NCBI RefSeq assembly: GCF_001708405.1
Contig: NZ_CP012418.1
Coordinates: 496,001 to 560,000 of the forward strand
DNA from: Kangiella sediminilitoris
Lineage (GTDB): Bacteria; Pseudomonadota; Gammaproteobacteria; Enterobacterales; Kangiellaceae
Length of the DNA: 64,000 bases
Direction of reading: 5' to 3'
The notes beneath the pieces are model-generated. The model was not told the origin of the DNA and ran no database searches. It was given only the letters and a program-made list of their open reading frames with translations. This document shows positions 3,266 through 64,000 of this stretch, piece by piece. The first letter of the stretch is position 1, and the number at the start of each line of letters is the position of its first letter. A program made the position numbers and the translations under genes.

Positions 3266-3307
3266 TGTCATCTCCAAAAAAGAGTATTTCATTAAAAGTC
3301 GGTGTGG

Positions 3308-3341
3308 ATTTTACGGCTATTATATGACAGTTACATGACAG
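3308..3341 (-). promoter_or_regulatory. Pho box and -10 element of the porin promoter
   Basis: Read on the minus strand, CTGTCATGTAACTGTCAT (3341-3324) contains two perfect CTGTCAT half-sites 11 bp apart, the PhoB consensus. Ten bases further lies TAAAAT (3313-3308), the spacing known for PhoB-activated promoters, which lack a good -35. Confidence 0.92.
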
Positions 3342-3410
3342 AAACGCTAAGGCTTTGTGAAACAGCACTTGTTACAGAAACTTTAAGCTGATTACTTACT
3401 CTATCCGTCC

Positions 3411-3428
3411 ATGTTACCGGGATGTCAT
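3411..3428 (+). promoter_or_regulatory. Possible upstream Pho box (pst operon)
   Basis: ATGTTAC-CGGG-ATGTCAT, two degenerate half-sites with 11-bp spacing, 41 bp (about four helical turns) upstream of the promoter-proximal Pho box of pstC. Likely an auxiliary PhoB site; weaker than the others. Confidence 0.5.
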
Positions 3429-3451
3429 AAAACAACCTGAATATTACAAGA

Positions 3452-3485
3452 CTTTAACATTACTGTCATATTCCAGACCTATAAT
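3452..3485 (+). promoter_or_regulatory. Pho box and -10 element of the pstC promoter
   Basis: CTTTAAC-ATTA-CTGTCAT (3452-3469): one perfect and one degenerate half-site at 11-bp spacing. Ten bases later comes TATAAT (3480-3485). The geometry is identical to the porin promoter on the other strand. Confidence 0.82.
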
Positions 3486-3513
3486 CCAAGCATGATTCTA
3501 GAATTGGTCTGAC

Positions 3514-49499: not shown

Positions 49500-51095
49500 T
49501 TAGTTTGGTGAACCGGCAACGGGAGTTTTTAAGTAAGGGAAAAACTCATCTAGGTCTGTAGCGGATAATGGTGCACCGTCAGTGAAGGGAGCGTTACCAA
49601 CGTTTGCATCAGCAGGTTCACAATAGCCAAGATTTGTTGGAGTGCCGTTGACTGGGAATTCGTAGCATAGACGACCCATTACGACTCGTAGTGCAATATC
49701 AACAACATCGTCACCAGGTCGTCTACCATTAGGGAAGCCAGCCAAGTCATCGCCGACAACACCATATGGTGATTGCTGTGAGGCGGGTACTGCAGGAATG
49801 CCTGTGTTAAGGCGAAGCATTTCCGATGGTGTTACTGTTGCCTGTTGATTGACGCCAGGGAAGCCTGTTAGGAATGCTGCGATTAGATCCGTACGCGGGA
49901 AGTTTGTTGGGGCAATAGTCTCAAAGTTAGTTCCCAGGGTGTTGTTCACCGCATCTCTGAATAAAATATTAAGTAACTCAGGGAAACTTGGGTGCGTTAC
50001 ATAATCCGCGAACTGACCGTCATCGGCAGGGGCGGCTGTTGAGAACCTGTCTTTGTCAGGTAGTCCTATAACCACTTCGTTGACCAAGGGGTTGCTGAGT
50101 CGTGAAATTTGTACTTTTGCTCCGCCGTTAACTTCTGGTTTTTCAAATGTTGCGTTTGGGTTCTGAATTCGAGCTTGTGGTACGTAAGCTGTTGTCCAGG
50201 CTCCAATCACTCCATTACCATCACCAACGATGCAGCTGGCTGGTAGCTCCAAAGCAAAAGTTGTGACATTTTTATTACGTAAGTCATCATTTGCTTTGTC
50301 CTGAGTAATACCGCCTGGGAAACCTCCGCCATCGCCAGCACCCGGCGAACTATCACCTTCTACCGGTACGTAATTTACTAAGTCAAAGCTCTCACCCAGA
50401 TTAACAGCGAAGGGATCTGAACGCTGACCTACGAATACCTTACCTTCGGTGGAGCATCCCGGAACACTGATGTTATAAATATATTGATTGGCATAATCCT
50501 GGTATGCAGTTGAAGAACCAAAGGTTTTGTCACCAATATAGTCCCATGGCTTAGTGAAATTAGTTTCTCCACCTGAGCCTGTTATTGCTGAGGTTGTACC
50601 TGAACGAACGGGACCTTCAACAAGGTTAAGGGTGTATTGCTCCGTAAAGTTTAAAGCTGAGCTATCACCGGCAGAAATGCCCCCGGCGTTCTTTAATGGA
50701 ATAGCGATTTGTTTCTTATCGCCATCAGGACCGACTGCGAGCTCAATCCCTGCACCTCCGGCGGCGAGGTTGTTATCGAATTTAAATTGAAAGGTAAGGT
50801 CTTCTACTGCGTCGCCATCACTGTCAATGTGAATATTGTAGTCTGCAGCAGGATCTAAAGCGAAGTAGTTCGGTCCACCGTAAGCATCTTGAAGTGGAAC
50901 ATAGTTAGCGATCATTGTAACATAACCTGAACGCCCTGTTTCGTAGCTGTTAAAAACATAGAAGTCGGTGGAATCCAAAGTTGGGTAACGTGTAATGTTG
51001 GGTGCTTCACGGTGACTAGAAGCCTCTGCCTCCTGAGAAATATAAGACGCTGTCATGCACAGGCAGACAGCGCTCATTGCGATATGCTTCTTCAT
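49500..51095 (-). CDS. DUF4331 family secreted protein
   Basis: 531 residues from the ATG at 51095, with GAGG 8 nt upstream. Signal peptide ends near EAEA. The family mark is the mature N-terminus SSHREAPNITRYPTLDSTDFYVFNSYE. Beta-rich and Gly/Asp-rich thereafter, with DSDGDAVEDL suggesting calcium binding. Function of the family is unknown. First gene of a four-gene minus-strand operon ending with a HupE/UreJ-like protein. An in-frame start at 51230 would add 45 residues with no export signal. Confidence 0.85.
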   Translation of the reverse strand: MKKHIAMSAVCLCMTASYISQEAEASSHREAPNITRYPTLDSTDFYVFNSYETGRSGYVTMIANYVPLQDAYGGPNYFALDPAADYNIHIDSDGDAVEDLTFQFKFDNNLAAGGAGIELAVGPDGDKKQIAIPLKNAGGISAGDSSALNFTEQYTLNLVEGPVRSGTTSAITGSGGETNFTKPWDYIGDKTFGSSTAYQDYANQYIYNISVPGCSTEGKVFVGQRSDPFAVNLGESFDLVNYVPVEGDSSPGAGDGGGFPGGITQDKANDDLRNKNVTTFALELPASCIVGDGNGVIGAWTTAYVPQARIQNPNATFEKPEVNGGAKVQISRLSNPLVNEVVIGLPDKDRFSTAAPADDGQFADYVTHPSFPELLNILFRDAVNNTLGTNFETIAPTNFPRTDLIAAFLTGFPGVNQQATVTPSEMLRLNTGIPAVPASQQSPYGVVGDDLAGFPNGRRPGDDVVDIALRVVMGRLCYEFPVNGTPTNLGYCEPADANVGNAPFTDGAPLSATDLDEFFPYLKTPVAGSPN

Positions 51096-51460
51096 TGTTA
51101 ATACCTCTTTTTCTGTGGGGTATTTTTGTTGCGTCACGAACGAAATTTGTGTGTGAATTCGTGCGTAACATTGATACCCCGTCTTATTTAACACGTTGAG
51201 ATAACTCAAATTAACGTGCCTCAAATCCACACTATGAATGATTATGTGAAAGTTATGTAAAGAAAACGGGGTGTGTTCTTACAAATATGTATAAATGGGG
51301 GGTATTCCTGGATAGGTATAGGGGAATACGACTAGACGTTGAGCTGGTGGTCACTGTTCTGCAAAGGTGAGAAAGTAAACTCTTAATAATGCTTGCCTCT
51401 AAAGCATTTTAAGCATATAAATAGCACAATTCTTACTCTATTGCTTTGAGGCCCCCTCTA
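51096..51460. other. 365-nt divergent intergenic region with two dyads
   Basis: No gene seen. Two symmetric elements are present: CACGAA / TTCGTG about 18 nt apart (51137-51166), and TTGAGATAACTCAA inside a larger CACGTT...AACGTG dyad (51191-51217). Either could be an operator for the DUF4331 operon or the oxygenase gene. Confidence 0.4.
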
Positions 51461-52141
51461 TTGAGCAGTAACGTCATACATGTATTTCAGCATCAGGATA
51501 TTATCGAGGTCGATAGCAAGACCTTGTTTGATAAAATTACTGATGATATTGGTCGTCAGGGTTACAGCATCAACCCCAATGCCTTGCCTCCTGAGCTGTC
51601 TGAAGCTTTATACCGTCAGCTACATCAAATGTCTTATTCAGAGTTCGACTCGGCTGGAATAGGCCGGCAGTCTGATCATATGGTAAATAATTTTGTCCGT
51701 ACTGATGAAATTTGTTGGATTGATGGTTTGTCGAAAGCGGGGCAGGAGTGGTTAGCCTGGACCGGTGAACTGAGGGTTCACCTTAACTCAAGGTTATTTC
51801 TAGGGCTGTTTTCTTTCGAGAGCCATTTTGCACATTATGCGCCTGGAGACTTTTATAAGCGTCATTACGATGCTTTTAAGGGAGAGTCAAACCGAGTTTT
51901 ATCGCTGGTAATTTACCTTAATCCTGAGTGGCAACCCGAAGACTCAGGAGAGCTAGTGCTGTATCGCAATGAACACGATAGCGAAGGTATTAAAGTTACA
52001 CCAACATTTGGTACCTTAGTGGCGTTTCTGAGTGAGGACTTTCCACATGAAGTCTTACCTGCGAGCAGAGACCGTTTTTCGATTGCAGGCTGGTATCGCA
52101 TCAATACCAGTCAGGGACACAAAGTTGATCCACCTCGGTAG
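51461..52141 (+). CDS. 2OG-Fe(II) oxygenase (prolyl hydroxylase-like)
   Basis: 226 residues. The jelly-roll core has the iron triad: His-x-Asp in RHYDAFKG, and the distal His in FPHEVLPASRDRFSIAGW, with Arg for 2-oxoglutarate 10-11 residues later. The family hydroxylates protein side chains or small molecules using oxygen and 2-oxoglutarate. No ATG is available; a TTG at 51461 with GAGG 9 nt upstream is chosen over a TTG at 51446. Confidence 0.82.
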   Translation: MSSNVIHVFQHQDIIEVDSKTLFDKITDDIGRQGYSINPNALPPELSEALYRQLHQMSYSEFDSAGIGRQSDHMVNNFVRTDEICWIDGLSKAGQEWLAWTGELRVHLNSRLFLGLFSFESHFAHYAPGDFYKRHYDAFKGESNRVLSLVIYLNPEWQPEDSGELVLYRNEHDSEGIKVTPTFGTLVAFLSEDFPHEVLPASRDRFSIAGWYRINTSQGHKVDPPR

Positions 52142-52150
52142 GTAGAGATA

Positions 52151-52177
52151 AAAAAAGAGGTGCCTGCAAGGCACCTC
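52151..52177 (-). terminator. Intrinsic terminator of the nnrS-RIC-norB operon
   Basis: GAGGTGCCT / AGGCACCTC 9-bp perfect stem; on the minus strand it is followed by a run of T. It follows norB. Confidence 0.88.
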
Positions 52178-52207
52178 AAAGTATCAGGAGAATGTCTCTT
52201 ATTATTA

Positions 52208-54490
52208 TTACATTGTTTCTTCTGCAGGAACCGGCTGAGTCACTGGCTCTCGACTGGTCTTATTAAGTAGTCCTTTTATAACCTGCCATGTTATCGCAAG
52301 CGCTCCTACGATAAAGACTACGTCACCAAGTGTTCTAATCCAGCGAAGTGTGAATAGGATGTCACTTTGCATGACTGCCTCACTTCTCGCATACCAGAAT
52401 CCCTCACTCGCACTGGCATAAAACTGAATTAACCCTACGGGGAGCAAACTTGTCAGTAACATCAAAACGAGTCCGATATTGAGCCACCAGAAACCAGTTT
52501 TCATCAGTTTTTCATCAAACACCATGTGAGGACGGATGTAACGTAAAATCAGCAGTACGAAACCTATGGCAAGGAAACCATAGACCCCGAACAGAGCTGC
52601 GTGTGCGTGAGTCGGAGTCATGTTTAGGCCCTGTACATAGTAAAGTGAGATGGGTGGGTTGATCATGAATCCGAGTACTCCTGCGCCAAACATATTCCAG
52701 AAAGCCACAGCAACAAAGCACATTAATGGCCAGCGGACTTTATCCATCCAGGCCGCACGACTTTTTAGACGATAATGTTCCCAGGCTTCATATCCAAGCA
52801 CGATAAGCGGTACAACTTCTAAGGCACTGAAAGTCGCACCGATTGCCATGACTGGGGTAGTGGTTCCGGCAAAATACAGATGATGGAAAGTGCCTGGTAC
52901 ACCGCCTAACAGGAACAGTGATGCTGAGGCCAGACTTGCTGCGGTAGCCGTCGACCGGCTAACTAATCCCATACTGTGGAAAATGAAGGCTAGTGATACT
53001 GTTGCGAATACTTCAAAGAATCCTTCAACCCACAGGTGAACAATCCACCAGCGCCAATACTCCATGATCGAGATATGTGTTCTTTCGCCGTAGAAGAAGC
53101 CAGCACCATAGAAAAGGCCAATAGCTACAACAGAAGCTGTTAATAAAACCAGTAGGTTTTTATCACCCTTCTGTTTGAGTGCCGGTCTAATGCCTCGCAT
53201 CATCAAAAACAACCAGAATACAACGCCAAGGAATTTACCCCACTGCCATAAACGGCCGAGGTCTACGTACTCATATCCCTGGTGACCTAGCCAGAAATTC
53301 AGTTCAGGAGGCATAATCTGTGCGATGGCTAAATAACTGCCAATGAAAGTACCAGCAACTACCGCAACTAAAGCCCAGAATAAAACATTAACCCCAAGCT
53401 TTTGATACTTAGGATCTTTTCCTCCATTAATAATGGGTACTAAGAATAGTCCCGCGGCTAAGAATCCGGTAGCAATCCAGAACATGGCCGCTTGTATATG
53501 CCATGTTCTGACCAGGGAGTAAGGGAACCACTTAGACGTTTCCAGTCCATAAAAACCCTGACCTTCTACTGTGTAATGTGCAGTAAATCCACCGAGAAAA
53601 ACCTGTAGGGTAAATAGTGCCACAACAACGAACAGGTATTTGCCCAGGGCTTTTTGAGAAGGAGTCAGTTTAAAAGTCGTAATCGGGTCCTGTGCAGGAG
53701 GCTCCGGCTCCCGGTCTTCCTCTTTCCTCATGAAAGCCCAGCCCCAGACAAGCCCGCCAACACCAGCAATAAGGAGGATGACACTAATAACTGACCAGAC
53801 AACGTTTTCTGAAGTCGGTTTGTTATCAATTAAAGGCTCATGTGGCCAATTATTGGTATAAGTGGAATCGCTTCCGGGTCTGTTTGTTGACGCTGCCCAG
53901 GCCGTCCAGAAAAAGAATTGCCCAAGAACCTTGCGACGCTCTGCATCAGGCAGAGTGTTTTCTTTCATGGCATAGTTATCACGTCTTTTTTGTAATTCAG
54001 GAGCGTCACTGAACAGACGGCTATAGTAGGTAGCTACTTGCTCTATCGCCTTCGCACGTCTTTCAGAAACTGTCATTGTGCCAGTCTCTTTATTGAAAGA
54101 GTTGGTGCGATACTCTTTCTTAAGACGGTATTGCAATGTTTGTTGCTGCTCACCATCCAGTTCACTGTATGGTGCACCAAAGTTGTCATGTGCAGCTAGA
54201 TCCAGCCAGGCGAGTAATTCGCGATGTAGCCAGTCAGCTGTCCAGTCCGGAGCCTGATAAGCACCATGCCCCCAAACTGAACCAAGCTGCATACCACCGA
54301 CAGATTGCCAGGCGGTTTGACCGTCTAGAATGGAGTCTTGTGTCATAAGCTCCTGTCCCCCTGTGGTGATGACCTTTTCAGGGATCGGGGGCGCTTGTCT
54401 ATATACTTCATTACCAAAATAGCCAAGAATAGCGAAAGTTACCGCTAATATAGCTATCAGGGTAAACCAGAGTTTGCGATATTTACCCAT
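52208..54490 (-). CDS. norB: Quinol-dependent nitric oxide reductase, large single-chain form
   Basis: 760 residues, the length of qNOR, in which the cytochrome-c-like NorC region is fused to NorB. An N-terminal helix (about 8-28) and a periplasmic extension (about 30-220) precede about twelve helices. Heme ligands and the non-heme iron site are seen in TWHIQAAMFW, WWIVHLWVEGFFEVF, FHHLYFAG and THAHAALFGVYGF. It reduces two NO to N2O using quinol. Third in the operon, 2 nt after the RIC gene. Confidence 0.95.
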   Translation of the reverse strand: MGKYRKLWFTLIAILAVTFAILGYFGNEVYRQAPPIPEKVITTGGQELMTQDSILDGQTAWQSVGGMQLGSVWGHGAYQAPDWTADWLHRELLAWLDLAAHDNFGAPYSELDGEQQQTLQYRLKKEYRTNSFNKETGTMTVSERRAKAIEQVATYYSRLFSDAPELQKRRDNYAMKENTLPDAERRKVLGQFFFWTAWAASTNRPGSDSTYTNNWPHEPLIDNKPTSENVVWSVISVILLIAGVGGLVWGWAFMRKEEDREPEPPAQDPITTFKLTPSQKALGKYLFVVVALFTLQVFLGGFTAHYTVEGQGFYGLETSKWFPYSLVRTWHIQAAMFWIATGFLAAGLFLVPIINGGKDPKYQKLGVNVLFWALVAVVAGTFIGSYLAIAQIMPPELNFWLGHQGYEYVDLGRLWQWGKFLGVVFWLFLMMRGIRPALKQKGDKNLLVLLTASVVAIGLFYGAGFFYGERTHISIMEYWRWWIVHLWVEGFFEVFATVSLAFIFHSMGLVSRSTATAASLASASLFLLGGVPGTFHHLYFAGTTTPVMAIGATFSALEVVPLIVLGYEAWEHYRLKSRAAWMDKVRWPLMCFVAVAFWNMFGAGVLGFMINPPISLYYVQGLNMTPTHAHAALFGVYGFLAIGFVLLILRYIRPHMVFDEKLMKTGFWWLNIGLVLMLLTSLLPVGLIQFYASASEGFWYARSEAVMQSDILFTLRWIRTLGDVVFIVGALAITWQVIKGLLNKTSREPVTQPVPAEETM

Positions 54491-54492
54491 GA

Positions 54493-55167
54493 TTATGCTC
54501 CTCTCAGGTAGTTATCAATACGTTCAAATAAAATGTTATTTTCTGTGTGAATATGATTGGTTAAGTCTTGTTGAAATATCTTCAGGTTGTCATAAAGCGA
54601 ACGCCAGCTGTTGCAGGCATCGCCGGGTAGTTGAAAATTATTGGTTAATAGCGTTAGTCGACGTAATGAACCACTATGATCATCATGCTCCATACGCATA
54701 ACAGCGACGGGGCTATTAGCCATGTGCGCCATGCCTTGTCGAATAATGGGAAACAGGATTTGCTCCTCTTTAAGCATGTGAGCTTCCATCTCCTGAGACA
54801 TCTTGTGCAGATGTTGTGTTAATCCTTGGGGGCAGTCGGGGTGATCCTTGTGAACCGACTCAACCCGATCGGCCAGTTGCAAAAGTTCGGGGATTTGTTG
54901 CCGATGAACCACATGATAGCGCTCTAGAATGTGGTCGATTAACTGCTCATCGGATAGGTTCCTAAGTTCATGTTCAGATGGTGGGCGTGCTTCTAGTTTT
55001 TGCAAAGCCTCCAGAATGTTATCAGGACTCAGTCCCATCTCTTCAATAGAAGAACCTAATGTTGACTTTCCTGAGCAGCTGTAATCAATACCATGCTCAA
55101 AAAATAGATCATTAGCTCCAGGAATGTCACGGGCAATTTGCCCAAGGGGTAGAGTTAATAAGTTCAT
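54493..55167 (-). CDS. Iron-sulfur cluster repair di-iron protein (RIC/YtfE/ScdA)
   Basis: 224 residues from the ATG at 55167, which overlaps the nnrS stop as ATGA and has GGAG 9 nt upstream. The ScdA_N domain (about 1-60; HGIDYSCSGKSTL) and a hemerythrin-like domain with His/Glu ligands (HLHKMSQEMEAHMLKEEQILF, EHDDHSGSLRRL, HIHTENNILFERI; these are separated segments) are intact. The protein repairs clusters damaged by NO. Second in the operon. Confidence 0.9.
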   Translation of the reverse strand: MNLLTLPLGQIARDIPGANDLFFEHGIDYSCSGKSTLGSSIEEMGLSPDNILEALQKLEARPPSEHELRNLSDEQLIDHILERYHVVHRQQIPELLQLADRVESVHKDHPDCPQGLTQHLHKMSQEMEAHMLKEEQILFPIIRQGMAHMANSPVAVMRMEHDDHSGSLRRLTLLTNNFQLPGDACNSWRSLYDNLKIFQQDLTNHIHTENNILFERIDNYLRGA

Positions 55168-56285
55168 GTCGCTTGTCTCCAAGACGAAATAGTAAAAGGA
55201 CCCAATGAGTTTTTAAGAAGGAAAACTCCCAGGCACAGAAATGCTATCGCCCAACATAAAGCTGAGATAGAAAGTAACGGTAAGGAGTAGCCTCCCACTG
55301 TTGCCAGTACTCGCATTGAGGCTGCTATACAGATTAAGCTGATAATGCCAAGTACCATAATGGCGGAAGCGGTCTGAGCAGTCTCACGCTTGTATTGACT
55401 TTTAAGGATGACGCCTGCAGATAAACAGCCGGCAGCAGCGACTGTCACAATATGAAGTATGGTTTTAATCGGTAGGTTAAACCAAAATGCAACGCCTAAT
55501 GCTAGGGTGCCAAGTGCTAGAGAGAAGTACCCCATGCCAAGGGCCATCAAATCGGGGCGATTAAGGCAATGCCAGAGTTGCCACCGAGTGAGCCGAATCA
55601 ATAAAATACTGGCTGCTAACAATGTTACTACTCCTGCTACTTTATCGGTGCTAGGGACTGATATGCTGAGGGCACCAACAGGTAAAAGCAGGAGTAGCAA
55701 ACCTTCTAAACGAGCTTGAACGGGAGCTTGAAGTCGTTTGCCCTGTTTTTGTAATTCACCAGCTGCGGCTGGGGCTATAATCCGGCCACCAAAAAATGCC
55801 ATCAACAGAATAAATAGAAGCAATATTGCCGACAGTAGCTGCCGGTGACTTAAATCGATATAGCCCCAGAACTGCAGGTACCAGAGAAGCGGAAAAATAC
55901 AGATTACTAGCAACAATGGGCTGATCATCTTGTTGCGCCATTTCTTAGCAGCGAAAAAACGGGGTACAATTTTCCATGCCAGTACCAGAGCAAATATGGG
56001 GCTCAGCCACTGGGATACGGGGTGAGTCGGGACAATTATGTAGGTAATCCGAGCGAGTAGCCACAGTATAAACAGGCACCACATTGAGAAGCGGGCGAGT
56101 TTTCCTAAGTTATAACCCGCCACCAGAGCTAATAGGAAACCAAAGAGAAGTTCGTGGCCATGACCAGAGCCAACCAGCCCCATAGGCCAACCTGTGTTAA
56201 GTGCCACAGCTGACAACACAACAGCCAAAGCACCGTAAAAGCAGGCTGCTGGGAAGAAAACTACTTGTGCGCTAACTGTTTTCAT
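55164..56285 (-). CDS. nnrS: NnrS family heme-copper membrane protein
   Basis: 373 residues and about twelve hydrophobic helices. NnrS-type patterns are GSGHGHELLFGFLLALVAGYN (quoted across about 36-56) with the conserved His pair, and PTHPVSQWLSP. NnrS is linked to NO stress tolerance. It is first in nnrS-RIC-norB; an NsrR-like site lies 16 nt before its ATG. Confidence 0.85.
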   Translation of the reverse strand: MKTVSAQVVFFPAACFYGALAVVLSAVALNTGWPMGLVGSGHGHELLFGFLLALVAGYNLGKLARFSMWCLFILWLLARITYIIVPTHPVSQWLSPIFALVLAWKIVPRFFAAKKWRNKMISPLLLVICIFPLLWYLQFWGYIDLSHRQLLSAILLLFILLMAFFGGRIIAPAAAGELQKQGKRLQAPVQARLEGLLLLLLPVGALSISVPSTDKVAGVVTLLAASILLIRLTRWQLWHCLNRPDLMALGMGYFSLALGTLALGVAFWFNLPIKTILHIVTVAAAGCLSAGVILKSQYKRETAQTASAIMVLGIISLICIAASMRVLATVGGYSLPLLSISALCWAIAFLCLGVFLLKNSLGPFTISSWRQAT

Positions 56286-56300
56286 GTTGCTTCTCTTTTG

Positions 56301-56323
56301 AAGGTGTATCTAAAATGCATGTT
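56301..56323 (-). promoter_or_regulatory. NsrR-like operator before nnrS
   Basis: A 23-nt site, AAGGTGTATC-T-AAAATGCATGTT written in its two halves, agrees with the gammaproteobacterial NsrR consensus (AAGATGCATTT-n-AAATGCATCTT) at about 18 of 22 positions. It sits in the leader of nnrS. Confidence 0.8.
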
Positions 56324-56388
56324 TATGGGTAAATTAATAAGCACTTTGTCTAGAATGCTCTTACGCTGTTAAACCAGTCTTTGCCTAG

Positions 56389-56429
56389 ATAATAATCGGC
56401 AGGGTGTATTTATCTTTGATCTAGATCAA
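56389..56429. promoter_or_regulatory. FNR/DNR-type site between nnrS and ybaN, with nnrS -10
   Basis: TTGATCTAGATCAA (56416-56429) is a perfect match to TTGAT-n4-ATCAA. For nnrS (minus strand) a TATTAT -10 (56394-56389) lies where a -41.5 site would place it. On the plus strand TAAAGT (56452-56457) fits the -10 for ybaN. Confidence 0.85.
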
Positions 56430-56453
56430 AATTACATTGAGGTGATAGAAATA

Positions 56454-56476
56454 AAGTATCATTGTAAATGCATGTT
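56454..56476 (+). promoter_or_regulatory. NsrR-like operator before ybaN-nsrR
   Basis: A 23-nt site beginning AAGTATCATT and ending AAATGCATGTT agrees with the NsrR consensus at about 17 of 22 positions. It overlaps the expected -10/+1 of the ybaN promoter, a good place for repression and nsrR autoregulation. Confidence 0.72.
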
Positions 56477-56516
56477 ATTTAAATCTGTGTAGAGGACGAG
56501 CTTGAGGCGCAAGTGA

Positions 56517-56882
56517 ATGTTTGTATCGAGTCGGTTAATTTATAAAGTCGTTGCTTTGACTGCTGTCGGTGCAGGCTTTGCCGGGGTTATATTGCCACTA
56601 TTGCCTACTACACCTTTCCTGCTCATCGCCCTATGGGCTGCTACTAAGGGATCCCCTGAGTTAAAGGGGTGGCTCATGGATCACCGTCATTTTGGCCCTG
56701 CCTTGAAGGCGTGGCATGAGCGAAAGGCGATACCCGTGTCCGCGAAATACCTGGCATGCAGTATGATGACAATCAGCTGGCTAGCCCTGTGGTTTATGGG
56801 AGCAAACACATACCTAATTGTGGGCTTATCAGTGCTCTTTGCATGCATAGTTGTATTTATTTTAAGCCGGCCCTCAATGTAA
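56517..56882 (+). CDS. ybaN: YbaN family (DUF454) membrane protein
   Basis: 121 residues. DUF454 marks: ALTAVGAGFAGVILPLLPTTPFLLIALW (quoted across about 13-40), with LPTTPFLL as the key part, then KAWHERKAIP. Three to four hydrophobic segments. Function unknown; the family often sits near heme or respiratory genes. A GAGG site precedes. It lies 14 nt before nsrR copy 2. Confidence 0.85.
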   Translation: MFVSSRLIYKVVALTAVGAGFAGVILPLLPTTPFLLIALWAATKGSPELKGWLMDHRHFGPALKAWHERKAIPVSAKYLACSMMTISWLALWFMGANTYLIVGLSVLFACIVVFILSRPSM

Positions 56883-56896
56883 CTAAGGAATTGAAA

Positions 56897-57334
56897 ATGA
56901 ACATTACTCGATATACTGACTACTCTTTGCGTGTCTTAATGTTCTTAGCATTACAAGAGGGGCGGCTGACTACCATTCATGAGATATCTGACCGTTATAA
57001 AATATCCTCTAATCATTTGATGAAAGTTGTACATAATCTTAATAAAAAAGGTTATATCGAAACTATTCGAGGTAAAAATGGTGGGATTCGTATGAAGCTA
57101 AAGGCTTCTGAAATCAATATTGGTGTACTGGTAAGGGAGATGGAGCCCGATCTTGCCTTAGTTGAATGCTTTTCGGATAAGAACCAGTGCATAATTACTC
57201 CAGTCTGCGGACTTAAAGGGGTCTTAAGTGAGGCCTTAAATTCCTTTCTAACAACGCTGGATAAGTACACCCTGGAAGATGTTCTTCCTGATCAGTACCG
57301 AGCGCAATTAGCCAGAATCCTGCAAATCACATAA
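56897..57334 (+). CDS. nsrR: Rrf2-family NsrR-like repressor (copy 2)
   Basis: 145 residues from the ATG at 56897; an in-frame codon at 56756 would overlap ybaN heavily. NITRYTDYSLRVLMFLALQ, HLMKVVHNLNKKGYIETIRGKNGG and cluster Cys in ECFSDKNQCIITPVCGL are seen. It resembles copy 1 closely in the helix-turn-helix and Cys regions. Its place between nnrS/norB and nirK, downstream of an NsrR-like site, makes it the likely local NO sensor. Confidence 0.9.
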   Translation: MNITRYTDYSLRVLMFLALQEGRLTTIHEISDRYKISSNHLMKVVHNLNKKGYIETIRGKNGGIRMKLKASEINIGVLVREMEPDLALVECFSDKNQCIITPVCGLKGVLSEALNSFLTTLDKYTLEDVLPDQYRAQLARILQIT

Positions 57335-57475
57335 GCCTAATAGCTTACATTTATTTTGTTTACATCTTCTAATAAAACTCCTACCTACTTCACAGGTTAG
57401 GTTTTTATCCTATTTTCAGTCATTTAAGGTGACTATTGCTGAATAAGGTCTTGTCTAAACATGCTGAAAAGAAAG

Positions 57476-57498
57476 AAGATGTAATTATTTTGCATATT
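57476..57498 (+). promoter_or_regulatory. NsrR-like site upstream of nirK
   Basis: AAGATGTAATTATTTTGCAT (first 20 of 23 nt) resembles the NsrR consensus in the outer parts of both halves; the centre is poorer. It lies about 60 nt before the expected nirK transcription start. Confidence 0.5.
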
Positions 57499-57510
57499 TA
57501 AACCGGTACA

Positions 57511-57551
57511 TGATCTAGATCATACTCACGTTCTCATTTTGGTCTGATACT
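57511..57551 (+). promoter_or_regulatory. FNR/DNR-type site and -10 of nirK
   Basis: TGATCTAGATCA (57511-57522) is the core of the same palindrome seen at 56416. GATACT (57546-57551) lies at the -10 position expected if the site is centred at -41.5. Confidence 0.72.
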
Positions 57552-57585
57552 TACTTACAGTGAATAACCATCTGGAGAAATGATT

Positions 57586-58986
57586 ATGTGGGGAAAGAAA
57601 CTTTTAGTGACTTTAGCAATAGCCACTGCTGCCTCTGTCGGGGCGGCAAAAACACTACCTGTCGAAGATGCCATTTTAACATCACCGCCTAATGTACCAC
57701 CGGCGATTGAACGTGACCATAATGCACGTGTCGTTGTTCATTTAGAGACCGTTGAAAAAGTTGGAACTATGGCGGATGGCGTAGAGTATGTCTACTGGTC
57801 TTTCGGTGGAACCGTTCCGGGTAGTTTTATACGAGTGAAGGAGGGCGATGAAATTGAGTTCCACCTATCTAACCATCCCTCTTCAAAAATGCCTCATAAT
57901 ATCGATTTACACGCCGTAACAGGTCCTGGCGGTGGTGCAGTCTCTTCATTTACTGCCCCTGGACATACTTCAACTTTTGCCTTCAAAGCTTTAAACCCGG
58001 GTCTATATGTTTATCACTGTGCAACTGCACCGGTGGGTATGCATATTGCTAACGGTATGTATGGATTAATTCTGGTCGAGCCAAAAGAAGGTTTACCAAA
58101 GGTTGACCGGGAATACTATGTAATGCAGGGAGACTTCTATACTAAAGGCAAGTATGGTGAAGCTGGTTTACAGCCATTTGATATGGAAAAAGCGATTGAT
58201 GAAGATGCTGATTACGTTGTATTCAACGGCTCAGTAGGCAGTTTGACTGGTGACAATGCTTTGACTGCGAAAGTCGGTGAGACTGTTAGATTGTATGTAG
58301 GTAATGGTGGCCCGAACCTGGTTTCATCATTCCACGTCATTGGTGAGATTTTCGACACTGTGTATATTGAAGGTGGTGATGCCAAAAACCATAATATTCA
58401 GACTACGCTAGTCCCTGCTGGTGGCTCTGCTATTGTTGATTTTGAGGTTCAGGTTCCAGGTAATCTCATTCTTGTTGATCACTCTATTTTCCGTGCGTTC
58501 AATAAAGGTGCTCTAGGCATGATTAATGTGACAGGCGAGGAAGATAAAGTCGTGTATTCAGGCAAGTTGAGCGATGCAATTTATCAACCTGAGGGTTCTG
58601 CAGTTCAAACCATGGAAGGCGACTACAAAGTTGCAAAAGCAGAAAATAAAGAAGATAAAGTGAAATTTGGTAAGCGTGTCTATGATGCTAACTGCAAAGC
58701 ATGTCACCAGGCCAATGGTGAAGGGGTGCCACAGGCATTTCCTCCTCTAGCTGAATCTGATTACTTCAATGAAGACCCTGTACGCGGTATCGAGGCGATT
58801 GTCCATGGATTGGAAGGACCTATTAAAGTTAACGGCGAAAGCTTTAACAGTGTGATGCCAGCGATGAAGCTTGATGACGATGAAATAGCTAACGTTCTAA
58901 CTTATATCCTTAATTCTTGGGGAAATAAGGGGGGAGAAGTGACTGTTGAGGACGTACAGAAAGTTCGTCAGCAAAAAGGTCATTAA
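57586..58986 (+). CDS. nirK: Copper nitrite reductase with C-terminal cytochrome c domain
   Basis: 466 residues. Signal peptide (to about GAA), two cupredoxin domains (about 30-330) with type 1 and type 2 copper ligands in [23 protein letters not shown] and SFHVIGE, then a linker and a cytochrome c domain (about 355-450) with CKACH heme binding and Met in SVMPAM. It reduces nitrite to NO; the tethered heme delivers electrons. The ATG at 57586 is favoured by GGAG at 8 nt over the ATG two codons earlier. Confidence 0.95.
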
Positions 58987-59002
58987 GAGTACGTAGCCTT
59001 TT

Positions 59003-59776
59003 ATGAATATGTTAACTCTAACTTTGATCACCGTTTCACTGGCTCTTTCTGGAGCCAGTGAAACGGTACTTATTCAGGGCGGTGAGTATCGACCTTTGTA
59101 TATGAGTAAGGATAGTCCTATGCAAATTGTTGATTCTTTCGAGCTTGATAAGTACCCGGTAACTAATGGACAGTTTTTATCTTTTGTTAACGAGCATACC
59201 GCTTGGCAGCGTTCAAATATCGCTTCTGTATTTGCAGAAGAGGATTACTTAAAACACTGGGATAACGATACAAGCCTGGGCAAGATATCTGCTAATAGTC
59301 CTGTAACTAATGTGTCCTGGTTTGCAGCGGATGCTTATTGTCAGGCGCAAGGTAAACGGTTACCAAAGGTGTCAGAGTGGGAGCTTGCCGCACTAGCTAG
59401 CGAGACTCAGCCGAACGGCTCATTAGAGAATGGGTACAAACAAAAAATCTTGACCTGGTACAGCAGGCCAAGCCCGGCAGTGTTGCCGGACATTGGTCTG
59501 GAGTCGTCCAATTACTGGGGAGTTCATGATATGCATGGGCTGGTCTGGGAGTGGACTGAAGATTTTAATTCTACTTTGGTCACAGGCGAGTCACGAGAGG
59601 ATAGCACGATTGACACCAAACTATTTTGTGCTGGAGGTGCCAGCGGTGCCGTTGATCCAGGTGATTATGCGGCATTTATGCGCTATGGCTTCAGAAGCAG
59701 TCTTGAGGCAAAGTTTACCTTGTCAAACTTAGGTTTTCGCTGCGCCTCGGATGTGAAAATACAGAGCGGAGAATAA
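59003..59776 (+). CDS. nirV: NirV-like formylglycine-generating-enzyme family protein
   Basis: 257 residues. Signal-like N-terminus, then an FGE/SUMF1 fold: GGEYRPLYMS, FELDKYPVTNGQFLSFV, PVTNVSWFAADAYCQAQGKRLP, GLVWEWTEDF and LGFRCA (separate segments). NirV is commonly found beside nirK; its exact role in copper or nitrite reductase maturation is not settled. It begins 16 nt after nirK. Confidence 0.85.
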   Translation: MNMLTLTLITVSLALSGASETVLIQGGEYRPLYMSKDSPMQIVDSFELDKYPVTNGQFLSFVNEHTAWQRSNIASVFAEEDYLKHWDNDTSLGKISANSPVTNVSWFAADAYCQAQGKRLPKVSEWELAALASETQPNGSLENGYKQKILTWYSRPSPAVLPDIGLESSNYWGVHDMHGLVWEWTEDFNSTLVTGESREDSTIDTKLFCAGGASGAVDPGDYAAFMRYGFRSSLEAKFTLSNLGFRCASDVKIQSGE

Positions 59777-59777
59777 T

Positions 59778-60341
59778 ATGAAAGTATGGTCGAAAGTGGT
59801 TGCGTTGGGGTTCCTACTGGCACTGACTGCTCAACCTGAAGGAAGGGCAAAGGAGCTTTCTGAGGCTTCCATTTATCATCTGGATAGTGAGTGGATTACT
59901 CAGGATAAAGCAACGATTAATATTAAAGATCTCAAGGGAAAGAAGCAGGTCGTGAGCCTAATATACACCCACTGCATGCACACCTGCCCAACGATTGTGG
60001 CAACGATGCAGGAAATTCAAAAAACATTGCCTGTAGAGTATCAGGATAAAGTGGGTTTCGTCTTGATATCTTTAACACCGGGATCAGACACCCCTGAAGT
60101 ACTGAAGTCTTTCGCCGAACGACGTAAGCTTGACCCAGAATACTGGACATTACTTACAGGAACTCCTAGAGATGTCCGTACACTTGCCATGGCCATGAAC
60201 ATTAAATACAAAAAAAGCGATGACAATGAAGTGGCACACTCGAATCTGATGACGGTCTTAGATGAGGAGGGTCGTATACTTTTTCAGCAGGTGGGTAATA
60301 TTGATAAAGCAAATGAGACCCTTACAAGAATCATTAAATAA
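59778..60341 (+). CDS. SCO1/SenC-family copper chaperone
   Basis: 187 residues. Signal peptide (to about GRA), thioredoxin fold with the copper-binding CMHTCP (about 68-73) and the distal His in NEVAHSNLM. SCO proteins deliver copper to oxidases; beside nirK it may serve the nitrite reductase. Start follows nirV by one base (TAATATG), so the two are coupled. Confidence 0.9.
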   Translation: MKVWSKVVALGFLLALTAQPEGRAKELSEASIYHLDSEWITQDKATINIKDLKGKKQVVSLIYTHCMHTCPTIVATMQEIQKTLPVEYQDKVGFVLISLTPGSDTPEVLKSFAERRKLDPEYWTLLTGTPRDVRTLAMAMNIKYKKSDDNEVAHSNLMTVLDEEGRILFQQVGNIDKANETLTRIIK

Positions 60342-60387: not shown

Positions 60388-60390
60388 ATT

Positions 60391-60413
60391 TGGTGGAGGC
60401 GGCGGGGCTCGAA
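60391..60413 (-). other. Attachment-site remnant: 3' end of a tmRNA/tRNA gene
   Basis: On the minus strand, TTCGAGCCCCGCCGCCTC followed by CACCA: a T-loop TTCGA, the 3' strand of a T-stem, an acceptor strand GCCTCCA and CCA. The end matches gammaproteobacterial tmRNA 3' ends. Sequence on the 5' side (TATTGATT) cannot pair with the T-stem, so the gene is truncated here. This is typical of an att half-site at the edge of an integrated element. DNA beyond it is much more AT-rich. Confidence 0.78.
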
Positions 60414-60721
60414 TATTGATTTTAAGGTATTGTTTATTATGTGATTAAATTAGTAATAATGGTTTTAGTGTTACATTAAATGTTACATTGGAAGCATCCT
60501 TCTTTAAAATGCATTATATAAAGCATGTCAGAAGTTAAGGACGTTGCCTGAATATTTTTTTGGATGAAAGCACCTTCCTTCTAATAAAGTAAGATAATAT
60601 TTTGAACAATAAATAGCATTGTTGTAGTGTTTAAGTGCAGCATAAACATGCAAATTGTACAGCCTTATCAAGTTTAAAAGTTTTTAGGGATGTAAGGCTC
60701 TTAAAAATTAAAGGTATATCA
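60414..60721. other. AT-rich island border with a direct repeat; no gene seen
   Basis: TGTTACATT occurs at 60469-60477 and again at 60481-60489, 12 bp apart, close to the att remnant. Such repeats can be arm-type sites for a tyrosine recombinase. No convincing open frame lies here. Confidence 0.55.
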
Positions 60722-61186
60722 ATGAGCTACGATAATTTTATTAGGGATCCAATGTTAGTAGCGGTTGCCTCTGCTTTTATAGGTCTCTTATTAGCCCTAT
60801 TATATGACAAGTGGAAAGGAAGAAAGGACAGAACTGTTGCTTTAAAGTTGCTCAAGCTCCAACTTGAGAGTCAGATTGAACAACTAGATCTTCTAAATGA
60901 TAACCTTGGTGAGAATAGAATTCTCGGAGGGCTGGATTCTTTTTATATTAAAAACTTTCTAACAGGCTCATCAGTAGACCTATCAAAAGATGAGAAGCTC
61001 ATATCATATTTACACGAGCACCTGGATAATGTTGAGCTAATAAAGAACGCAATAACTAGAATTAATATGTGCTCTGCAGGGTTTACTAATGTACATTCCA
61101 GAATGAAACATGAATTGGAGAGTAACCTAAGGGTTTGTCTAACTGATTGTAAGGAAACAATCAGAAAATGCATCTCAAATACGTGA
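60722..61186 (+). CDS. Membrane-anchored helical protein of the island, unknown function
   Basis: 154 residues from the ATG at 60722 (AAAGG 7-10 nt upstream). One N-terminal membrane helix (about 10-28) is followed by a basic stop-transfer segment KWKGRKDR and a mostly alpha-helical cytosolic domain. Family not recognised. AT-rich codon use unlike the core genes. It lies 100 nt before a second small membrane gene and may belong to the same element as the STAND gene. Confidence 0.6.
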   Translation: MSYDNFIRDPMLVAVASAFIGLLLALLYDKWKGRKDRTVALKLLKLQLESQIEQLDLLNDNLGENRILGGLDSFYIKNFLTGSSVDLSKDEKLISYLHEHLDNVELIKNAITRINMCSAGFTNVHSRMKHELESNLRVCLTDCKETIRKCISNT

Positions 61187-61286: not shown

Positions 61287-61529
61287 ATGAAAGGAAAATT
61301 AAATTTTAAAAATATAAATATATTTTTAACAATACTATTAGCGGTTTCAGCAATTACTTCATCATACTTCAGTTACCAAATAGTAAAAATATCAGAAGAA
61401 AATATAAAGTTACTAGAAGAACAGCAGGGTCGAGAGTCTCGAAAGGAGCTTAGGGAAATGTTAGAGCTTTTTATAAAGGTACATAAAGAGTATAAACAGG
61501 CTGAAAAGGAACTTGAACAAAAGAGTTGA
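61287..61529 (+). CDS. Small membrane protein with coiled coil, next to the STAND gene
   Basis: 80 residues. A membrane helix (about 10-31) is followed by a charged coiled-coil region (about 33-78; EENIKLLEEQQGRESRKELR). The stop is 2 nt before the STAND ATG, so the two are in one operon and may work together. AAGGGGG lies before the ATG. Family not recognised. Confidence 0.65.
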   Translation: MKGKLNFKNINIFLTILLAVSAITSSYFSYQIVKISEENIKLLEEQQGRESRKELREMLELFIKVHKEYKQAEKELEQKS

Positions 61530-61531
61530 TA

Positions 61532-64000
61532 ATGGCAAGTCAAAACCAAATTAAAATAAAAATATGTGAGTTGGAGGGAGGTGGTTTTCAACGCCTTTGC
61601 GATGATTGGTTATATAAGAAAGGCTACGAAAATATAAACTCTATTGGCATGATGAAAGCAACAGACCGTGTAACGATAGGTACTCCAGATAGCTTACTCA
61701 TGCAAGAGAATGGAAAGTATATTTTTGGTGAGTACACGGTGCGTCAACAAGGTTTGGGAAGAAAGATAGAGGGAGATATAGGTAACTGTTTAGATGAAAA
61801 TAAAACTGGTATCCCAATAGATAAAATTAGCAAAATAATAATATGTTATACAGGTGAGTTATCTACTAAAGAGATAGAGAATCTTAGGAGTCTTTGTTAT
61901 GAAAAGGGAGTTATATTAGAACTATATGGAATTGACACAATCTCCTTAAGCATTACAAACTCTTATCCTGCTCTTTCAGAAAGACATTTAGGCATACCAT
62001 TAGATACAGGGCAGCTACTCTCGGTTCAAGACTTTATAGAGCGTTACGGAAAGAGTAACTTTACAGCACCAATTGATAATGAGTTATTATTTAAAGATGA
62101 TTTACTAAAAAAAGCTACTGAACTACTAGAAGAAAAAAAGTTTTTATTAATATCTGGTGGACAAGGAGTTGGGAAAACACTATTTGGTGTTAATTTAGTT
62201 AAAGATATTAAAAAAAGGGAAGGTAAGTTAAAAGCATTTTGTCTTTTTGATAAAGGAGTAGATCTAATAAGAGATATAACCGCCTGTTTTAGCGAGCCAG
62301 GTAATTATTTAATATTTGTTGATGACGCCAATCGACTTGATAATAGGCTTGATTACATTCTCCATTACCTAAATGATATTGATGAACAAAGAAGTTTTCG
62401 TATTATTGCTACGGTAAGAGACTATGCTAGAGAATCTGTAATAGAAAGAGTTAGTAAAATTACGGAGTTTCACGAACAAACAATCCAGCCACTTTTAGAT
62501 GAACATATAAAAGTACTTACGGAAACTTTATTTGGAATCAAAAACGCAGAATATCAAAAGCAAATTCAGGAGGTGGCTCGTGGTAACCCTCGTTTAGCTG
62601 TAATGGCATCAAGAGTCGCAGTTGAAAGAAAAGAGATACAGTCTATACATAATGCTGCTGCAATATACAAAGAGTATTTTGGAAGTAATGATAGCGTAAA
62701 ACAGTTACTTAATAATAGAGATTTAACATTAGTAGCTTGTGCCGTTTCTTTTTTTAGGAAACTGGATAAGCACAATAAAAAACAAAATGAATGGGTTGAA
62801 AAAGTATTTTGTATACAGTACGAAAAGTTTTGGGAGCTTATTGGTGTCTTACACCGAAATGAAATAGTTGACTTGTACGAAAATGAGGTCGTAAAAATAT
62901 CTGATCAAGTGTTATCTACCTATATATTTTATATTGCGGTCTTTGAAAGAAAAGATGTGCCTTTTTTATCCATTGTAGAAAATTTTTTCCCGGATCTTAA
63001 TAGCTATATCGTTGACTCAATAAATCCATTGATGAAAGTTTTTAACCAAGGTGAAATAATTTCCGAGATTAGACGGTCAATAAAAGAATATTATAAAAGT
63101 ATATATAACACTAGCAGTAGTGATGAAGTCTTAAGGTTTCTTAATATGTTTTGGTTTGCCCTTCCGGAAGAATCCCTTCTATACGTAAAAAACTGTATTC
63201 AGGGAATGCAAAACGATGAAGTTAACTGGAGAAATGTGAACTTTGAAGAGTCAAGTAATGAATTAAGTAAATTTCCTATTGTTAAATTATTATCCAACTT
63301 TAGACAGTTCGATGAGTCAACTTTTAAAAATAGCATTGAATTGTTGTTCGATTATCTTTTAAGGGATAGTTTTAGTCTTGGTGCCGTCATACAAGTCTTA
63401 GTCCACAATTATAATTTCAGACCTAAAGATAGGCGTTATGGTTACAATATTCAAAACTTTATCATAGATAGGTTAGTAGCCCTGTCTGATAGAGGCAAAA
63501 ACTATTTATATAGCAAACTATTGCTTATTGTCTCAGATTCTTATTTAAAAACTGAGCATCGTGCACATGAATGGTCAAATAGCGATTCAATAAATTTTAT
63601 TACATTCTGTCTTCCTCCTGATGAGTACTTAATCCCTTTGAGGGAAAAAATAATTATAAATATATCCAAACTCTTAGGTGACTGTAAATTTGAAGAATCT
63701 ATTTTGCGTATTTTTGATAAATATATTTTAAGGTTAAGGGTGGAGGGAAAAGAACTAGCGGAAGTAGACTTTCCACTTATAGAAAAATATTTTATTCAAA
63801 AATTAGACCGAAACAAAGTACTGCACTGTTTCATAGTGCATAAATATTTAGACCAGTTAGAATCGATTGAGCTGAGTTTCGATAAGCAATTAAGAGTATT
63901 TTATCAAAATAAAACGGTAGAGTTATCAAAGCTACTACTTGATAATCGAAGTGAGCGAGTTGCCTTAGAGATGGGGTTTGAAGATTACGAGGTCTATAAG
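61532..64000 (+). CDS. STAND-like P-loop NTPase with N-terminal nuclease-like domain (partial, defence candidate)
   Basis: 823 codons without a stop to the window edge; the C-terminus is missing. Residues 1-150 look like a PD-(D/E)xK-type nuclease: Asp53 in GTPDSLL and Glu67 in FGEYTVRQQG, though the usual Lys is Thr69. A P-loop NTPase follows: Walker A GGQGVGKT (209-216), Walker B YLIFVDDANRLD (Asp264-Asp265) and an arginine-containing sensor ATVRDYA (Arg296). The rest is alpha-helical, as in sensor repeats. The layout is that of nSTAND-type antiphage proteins (Avs-like). AT-rich, in an island. Family assignment is by architecture, not a search. Confidence 0.78.
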   Translation, partial: MASQNQIKIKICELEGGGFQRLCDDWLYKKGYENINSIGMMKATDRVTIGTPDSLLMQENGKYIFGEYTVRQQGLGRKIEGDIGNCLDENKTGIPIDKISKIIICYTGELSTKEIENLRSLCYEKGVILELYGIDTISLSITNSYPALSERHLGIPLDTGQLLSVQDFIERYGKSNFTAPIDNELLFKDDLLKKATELLEEKKFLLISGGQGVGKTLFGVNLVKDIKKREGKLKAFCLFDKGVDLIRDITACFSEPGNYLIFVDDANRLDNRLDYILHYLNDIDEQRSFRIIATVRDYARESVIERVSKITEFHEQTIQPLLDEHIKVLTETLFGIKNAEYQKQIQEVARGNPRLAVMASRVAVERKEIQSIHNAAAIYKEYFGSNDSVKQLLNNRDLTLVACAVSFFRKLDKHNKKQNEWVEKVFCIQYEKFWELIGVLHRNEIVDLYENEVVKISDQVLSTYIFYIAVFERKDVPFLSIVENFFPDLNSYIVDSINPLMKVFNQGEIISEIRRSIKEYYKSIYNTSSSDEVLRFLNMFWFALPEESLLYVKNCIQGMQNDEVNWRNVNFEESSNELSKFPIVKLLSNFRQFDESTFKNSIELLFDYLLRDSFSLGAVIQVLVHNYNFRPKDRRYGYNIQNFIIDRLVALSDRGKNYLYSKLLLIVSDSYLKTEHRAHEWSNSDSINFITFCLPPDEYLIPLREKIIINISKLLGDCKFEESILRIFDKYILRLRVEGKELAEVDFPLIEKYFIQKLDRNKVLHCFIVHKYLDQLESIELSFDKQLRVFYQNKTVELSKLLLDNRSERVALEMGFEDYEVYK

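Follow-up and report, generated by a model that had tools for sequence, protein, structure and literature searches.

A candidate anti-phage STAND NTPase with an atypical, lysine-free nuclease-like domain on a satellite-like island of Kangiella sediminilitoris

Introduction

Can a restriction-endonuclease fold remain an active immune effector after its catalytic lysine has been lost? A clean test case is offered by a gene at the end of a 64,000-nucleotide stretch of the Kangiella sediminilitoris genome (NZ_CP012418.1, positions 496,001 to 560,000; hereafter the window), which encodes a STAND NTPase with an atypical nuclease-like N-terminal domain (N-domain) and lies on an island at the transfer-messenger RNA (tmRNA) gene. 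The protein very probably has a defence role, and we lean, with reserve, towards reading its gene as a single-gene anti-phage receptor of the NLR/Avs type, carried as cargo by a satellite resembling a phage-inducible chromosomal island (PICI) and using its N-domain to cut DNA. The family is likely a group of defence receptors beyond the 2023 PADLOC models; it occurs in four phyla, here on a satellite-like island, and offers natural variants with threonine or serine at the position in question and one member without the glutamate. No description of this STAND family appeared among the matches listed from the openly licensed literature, which is not proof of novelty.

The STAND gene and its product

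The preliminary description of this DNA had reported an open frame reaching the window edge, and 823 codons free of stops do follow the ATG start; in its own genome, a single contig of 2,496,140 bases, the first stop comes at L002:6303, which supplies the C-terminus and gives a protein, P0001, of 1256 residues. L002 is the 20 kb of this genome around the gene (window position = L002 position + 58999); other loci and genomes are given L and G numbers in the same way. The frame is not a chance one, because it carries an nSTAND3 match above the cut-off, has full-length relatives at identities as low as 23%, and shows ratios of nonsynonymous to synonymous change (dN/dS) no higher than 0.50 in any region among four pairs of relatives. 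Its features are as follows.

61532..64000 in the window (codons 1-823; whole gene L002:2533-6303), plus strand: STAND NTPase gene, 1256 residues in all
61532..61996, plus strand: putative N-terminal effector domain, about residues 1-155, predicted restriction-endonuclease fold
61688..61690, plus strand: codon of Asp53, in a GTPD motif; all 29 N-domains have Asp here
61730..61738, plus strand: codons of Glu67-Tyr68-Thr69, ExT replacing (D/E)xK in the tally of 29 N-domains
62099..62476, plus strand: nSTAND3 NTPase match, residues 190-315 (PF20720, 34.8 bits, cut-off 27.2)
62156..62179, plus strand: P-loop GGQGVGKT, residues 209-216; G209, G212, G214 and K215 invariant in 17 of 17
62321..62326, plus strand: Walker B Asp264-Asp265, invariant in 17 of 17
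62408..62425, plus strand: ATVRDY, residues 293-298; T294, R296 and Y298 invariant in 17 of 17
62522..64000 and past the window, plus strand: helical region from residue 331 onward, presumed winged-helix and sensor, from the AlphaFold model of the relative L011

The N-terminal domain

An Asp53, a Glu67 and a Thr69 forming an ExT motif without lysine had been named earlier, and all three stand at those positions, the motif reading Glu67-Tyr-Thr69. In the predicted model of the N-domain, helices (H) and strands (E) follow one another as H16-29, E34-37, E54-57, E63-69, H75-87, E99-106, H112-123 and E128-132, so that the Asp precedes one strand and the Glu lies on the next, as in the core fold of the PD-(D/E)xK superfamily. 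The model matches the nuclease domains of Avs4, LlaBIII, AspBHI and MspJI, and the top VIA-align matches are Mrr-like or other restriction-type domains, with Avs4 first. The PD-(D/E)xK-like domain proposed at the outset thus agrees with the predicted fold, though sequence profiles lend it no support; what backs the nuclease reading is accordingly the predicted fold, together with the layout of the motif and its conservation.

Across 29 N-domains, Asp53 is present in all and Glu67 in 28, and position 69 is Thr in 27 and Ser in two. This tally comprises the gene's own N-domain, all 20 loci found in genome_contigs (L028 being partial), L005, L008, L038, L040, two of 13 Leptospira records, L121 and L122, and omits L004, L006 and L007 as copies of L011, L014 and L023. 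Among 16 full-length sequences, mean pairwise identity is highest in the N-domain (0.61, with 34 of 160 columns invariant), 0.53-0.55 over residues 161-480, and lowest beyond residue 480 (0.35-0.41, with 3-5% of columns invariant). For the N-domain, residues 161-480 and the rest, dN/dS is 0.05-0.06, 0.03-0.10 and 0.12-0.14 in the two more distant pairs, where synonymous changes are near or at saturation, and 0.39-0.50, 0.15-0.16 and 0.29-0.42 in the two most similar pairs, where changes are few. The N-domain is well kept, yet dN/dS alone does not set it apart.

The NTPase and the helical C-terminal part

The STAND NTPase of the preliminary description is borne out by a Pfam nSTAND3 match above the gathering cut-off, and the intact P-loop, the Asp-Asp Walker B and the ATVRDY motif that it had listed were all found where it placed them, with their key residues invariant in 17 of 17. 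In predicted structure the NTPase resembles those of Avs4, Avs5 and Avs3 and of animal NLRs; here as for the N-domain, a family absent from the match lists may be alike too. The helical region said to follow the NTPase is likewise seen in the AlphaFold model of L011 (residues 160-1256, mean predicted local distance difference test score 82.2), whose C-terminal part is nearly all helical. Neither family scans of the protein nor the model revealed a further effector domain. An N-terminal fold outside the nucleases together with an unrelated housekeeping NTPase, the outcome that was to overturn the proposal, was looked for and did not occur; a plain housekeeping NTPase was rejected on the patchy occurrence of the gene and its island position.

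Comparison with known defence systems

Against PADLOC, P0001 gives weak matches only (JetA, E 0.0019; mad8, E 0.0097), and for 17 family members the matches are to mad8, Jet and PD-Lambda-4_A, none better than E 8e-7. PADLOC-DB contains AVAST models, and none of these matched P0001 at E<=1 or the 17 members at E<=0.1, which by this criterion leaves the protein outside the AVAST (Avs types 1-5) sequence families. In structure, by comparison, Avs4 (AVAST type 4; PDB 8dgf) is both the best VIA-align match of the N-domain and the best Foldseek match of the rest of the protein, and it has the same order of parts: a Mrr-like nuclease-fold N-domain (in P0001 a predicted one), a STAND NTPase and a long C-terminal part. 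The two differ in the nuclease-motif lysine, which becomes Thr or Ser here, and in length (1256 residues against 1534-1541 in the 8dgf chains). Avs4 recognises the phage portal, according to PMC12724215.

Protein A of PD-Lambda-4, which PMC10952713 tabulates among P-loop NTPase defence systems, has a similar length and adjoins the Leptospira relative L009; when profiles are compared, its NTPase proves homologous to that of the family over query residues 194-414, at 95% probability and E 2e-8. Its N-domain, however, reads DGGVD and so on, canonical Mrr type by eye, the remainder is unaligned, and the window gene has no such partner; the PD-Lambda-4_A model has no match to P0001 at E<=0.1 and matches two of 17 members weakly (best E 5e-4), and homology is confined to the NTPase. 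Avs5, a SIR2-STAND protein whose NTPase is assigned in PMC12931631 to the same Pfam family, PF20720, shares the helical C-terminus and is matched by Foldseek at E 5.2e-7 (9jap), but its effector is SIR2 where P0001 has a predicted restriction-endonuclease fold, and no Pfam match to a SIR2 domain was found in P0001.

Mrr-type nSTAND3 proteins (L032-L036, frames of 753-768 residues) also place a D..QxK N-domain, Mrr type by eye, before nSTAND3, at an Asp-Gln distance of 14 (L032, L033), 13 (L034, L036) or 20 (L035), compared with 14 here. In these the Gln-x-Lys is kept, the C-terminus is shorter, and hhalign fails to align the N-domains, both runs against the family N-domain giving less than 1% probability.

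Proposed mechanism and its rivals

On the analogy of Avs proteins (PMC12724215, PMC12931631), we propose that oligomerisation triggered by a ligand activates the N-terminal domain. The chain from recognition to killing is inferred, whereas the domain order, predicted folds, conserved residues, island position and absence from congeners were found directly. The idle protein would be kept closed and nucleotide-bound until its helical C-terminus, which is long and evolves faster, engages a protein produced by the infecting phage. The nSTAND3 NTPase would then exchange nucleotide and oligomerise, gathering the N-terminal restriction-endonuclease-fold domains, in which Asp53 and Glu67 may coordinate a divalent metal for DNA cleavage, so that the phage and probably the cell are stopped. 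Thr69 (or Ser) stands where the catalytic lysine is usual, and the site might be completed by the Thr/Ser hydroxyl or by a nearby conserved lysine, e.g. Lys78. That the N-domain cuts DNA is, on balance, the expectation.

Several findings weigh against this receptor with a DNA-cutting domain. The catalytic lysine two residues after the Glu is found in none of the 29 N-domains; some active enzymes of the superfamily (BamHI, BglII) lack it too. Glu67 itself is missing from the phage-borne relative L121, which has LMYGT in place of EYT. Sequence profiles link the N-domain to no nuclease family: Pfam gives nothing at E<=1 for the window N-domain and scattered weak matches only for the other 18 members (a single one of the 19 matches HSDR_N, at E 0.008), and PADLOC nuclease models do not match it. 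Foldseek by itself is weak for a nuclease fold (best E 1.6e-3 in PDB), and chains of RPB5, a non-catalytic, dead member of the restriction-endonuclease fold, match as well. In the closest two pairs the dN/dS of the N-domain exceeds that of the presumed sensor, on few changes, and many relatives lie, by eye, between ordinary chromosomal genes. Separately, the PDB profile searches returned hemagglutinin chains, at E 0.0018 and 0.0038 at best, along with a few other unrelated chains; these matches were taken as chance.

The strongest rival draws on these same findings: the restriction-endonuclease fold of the N-domain may be catalytically dead and bind nucleic acid or a nucleotide, as a sensor or scaffold like the inactive restriction endonucleases, with defence exerted by another output. 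The universal loss of the lysine, the L121 variant and the RPB5 matches favour it, as does a BREX survey, which describes inactive restriction endonucleases paired with NTPases in immunity as often being nucleotide sensors (PMC12839542). The same survey reports the catalytic motif of BrxHII as fully degenerate, whereas here Asp53 and, with one exception, Glu67 are kept in the domain of highest mean identity, and the protein offers no other effector; a dead domain is considered unlikely, if still the alternative to be taken most seriously. Less probable again is an enzyme of the same fold acting, in an otherwise similar receptor, on a target other than double-stranded DNA (RNA, single strands, or by nicking only), against which stands the restriction-type character of the best structural matches, headed by Avs4. 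That the gene is a satellite function, for example one that detects the helper phage and so triggers or packages the satellite, is very improbable: it does lie in a satellite-like island beside, and overlapping, a terminase small subunit gene, but a sister island at the same site in G195 has no match to it, its relatives lie beside Tn7-like, plasmid, prophage and plain chromosomal genes, and its guanine-plus-cytosine (GC) content falls under that of the island's integrase, alpA and replication genes, though other island genes are intermediate.

A bolder reading is doubtful: a distinct effector class of PD-(D/E)xT enzymes, in which a conserved Thr/Ser hydroxyl has permanently replaced the lysine, on an NLR-like receptor spreading between phyla. 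If true, such an enzyme would imply changed chemistry or substrate, for instance hydroxyl-assisted, nicking or RNA-cutting activity.

Distribution and neighbourhoods of the relatives

Within the order, relatives occur in six of 394 genomes (own included), and the 20 genome_contigs loci come from Vibrio, Shewanella, Pseudoalteromonas, Gilliamella, Desulfobacteraceae, Apibacter and others; 13 Leptospira plasmid records follow at about 25% identity. The N-domain profile finds one of 398 genomes of the phylum and three of 369 of the class, own included in each, and no other architecture carrying the domain turned up in these searches. GenBank phages contain no match to the protein. The full-length profile matches no viral contig; the N-domain profile matches two, the same two on a repeat search, one of which retrieves itself only. 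The relative on a viral contig at L121:5001-8723, near a large terminase gene, is a natural variant of the presumed active site.

A tree of 20 rows places the Desulfobacteraceae member within the gammaproteobacteria (support 100/100) and the Bacteroidota member with Gilliamella (89/92), which indicates, from the sequences, that the family has been transferred between phyla; the Apibacter-Gilliamella pairing is less sure because the tree program flags both rows as long and compositionally unlike. PF20720 proved a noisy query in the class (all 274 genomes searched match at E<=0.001 and 102 exceed the cut-off, often by short P-loop matches; all 14 controls match, seven over the cut-off) and served only to pick L032-L036, L038 and L040, the last with a frame of 530 residues. 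L027, L029 (in pieces) and L030 are truncated or broken copies; matches confined to residues 1-362 (L030) and 1-180 (L027) had raised the idea of domain shuffling, which was abandoned, since both frames stop there.

Mobile elements are found near several relatives: a Tn7-like set (TniB, a Mu-transpos_C protein and a TnsA-like protein) near L016, an IS91-type transposase near L018, and a phage-type integrase near L009, where the Leptospira plasmid relative (L009:9881-13675) follows the integrase and directly precedes a full-length PD-Lambda-4_A (E 2e-273). At 17 loci (16 of the 20 genome_contigs loci plus L009, with L013, L020, L022 and L024 left out), 61 PADLOC models at E<=1e-20 were counted among 103 proteins within 4 kb, against two among 78 proteins at least 5 kb away, these being counts of models, several of which may fall on one protein. 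When 10 hand-picked proteins, including eight neighbours from seven loci, were scanned individually, four neighbours at four loci passed 1e-20. Enrichment of defence genes around the relatives is suggestive only. No recurring neighbour was evident to the eye in the locus gene lists, no clustering having been run, and for the two small open reading frames (ORFs) upstream of the gene in the window the loci fetched elsewhere give no convincing copy (E 0.13 at best beyond the own genome); the STAND gene is therefore treated as a single-gene system. Just downstream of the Vibrio pectenicida relative, at L012:14230-15537, lies a PARP-domain protein, possibly another conflict gene.

The island at the tmRNA site

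The AT-rich island beside a tmRNA attachment (att) remnant that had been proposed is bounded by att repeats, and the STAND gene has a GC content of 0.322 against a mean of 0.430 (standard deviation 0.013, minimum 0.392) in 114 same-size windows within 1-60389. GC content is 0.417-0.427 in the integrase, alpA and replication genes, 0.375 in the terminase small subunit gene (terS) and 0.351 in a 331-residue ORF. The intact tmRNA (RF00023, 211 bits) lies 9.4 kb beyond the left att copy. The left part of the island contains the following.

60390..60413, plus strand: left att copy, repeating 24 bp of the tmRNA 3' end at 96% identity (repeat family D4) and forming the left end of the island; other copy L002:10790-10813
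60466..60493, plus strand: 28-bp arm-type repeat inside the left end (repeat family D3, 93%; partner L002:10646-10673)
60722..61186, plus strand: ORF of 154 residues, N-terminal hydrophobic stretch by eye, no convincing family
61287..61529, plus strand: ORF of 80 residues, hydrophobic then charged helix by eye, ending 2 bases before the STAND start

The plus strand of the island carries these two ORFs and the STAND gene, which overlaps terS tail to tail by 4 bases. On the minus strand are a tyrosine integrase (PF00589, Arm-DNA-bind_3), the 331-residue ORF, AlpA, a Lin1244_N/replication-type protein, a 132-residue ORF and the small terminase subunit (PF03592, 41 bits; phrog_51). Integrase, AlpA, replication and packaging genes thus lie between the att repeats, with an accessory gene at the far end, the arrangement given for Gram-negative PICIs in PMC6092414; the replication gene here differs in being of Lin1244_N type, not Pri-Rep. 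The island is likely, judging by its gene content, a PICI-like phage satellite with the STAND gene as cargo.

The 331-residue ORF, at L002:8316-9311 outside the window between alpA and the integrase, had no match in Pfam, PHROGs or NCBIfam (each E<=0.1) or in PADLOC (E<=1). Adjoining the island, window positions 49500-60341 hold what is by eye a denitrification/nitric-oxide cluster (NorB-like, YtfE-like, an Rrf2-type regulator, a copper nitrite-reductase-like protein with a cytochrome domain, and SCO-like).

The same site in congeners

Presence of the gene in all relatives at the same place without an island, which would have spoken against a mobile defence gene, was not what was found: 17 congeners lack any match to the STAND protein, and three genomes show an empty site. 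tmRNA is present in all 20 genus genomes searched, and in seven, own included, a close sco orthologue (at least 61% identity) lies near it on the same contig. By coordinates the gap between sco and tmRNA is about 350-540 bases in G283, G225 and G997 (the last outside the set of 17), an empty site; in G225 the positions matched by the left flank and by the tmRNA end overlap, which is what an empty site should show. The gap is 4.1 kb in G184, where no integrase was seen by eye, 4.9 kb in G195, 6.7 kb in G173 and 9.5 kb in the own genome. The sister island of G195, its integrase 85% identical, occupies the same site. At L111 (G173), positions 3164-5298, an integrase-like gene (Phage_integrase 21.0 bits, under the cut-off of 27.1) accompanies a type II restriction-modification pair, the methyltransferase at a PADLOC E of 8.2e-125 and the restriction enzyme at 2.5e-134. 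The other islands at this tmRNA site in congeners, one of them with the restriction-modification pair, suggest that cargo is swapped there; in G173 it looks like a swap site for defence cargo.

Of the 13 genus genomes without a close sco-tmRNA pairing, G007 and G107 were inspected. G107 has two full-length tmRNA matches of equal score (G107:C1:816659-817008 and 818941-819290; L114) 2.3 kb apart and flanking a 517-residue ORF, which may mark a duplication that an integrating element left behind, and in G007 a tmRNA 3' fragment of about 195 bases (G007:C3:372988-373182, at the end of L113) is separated from the intact gene by about 9 kb of ordinary genes and resembles an old island scar.
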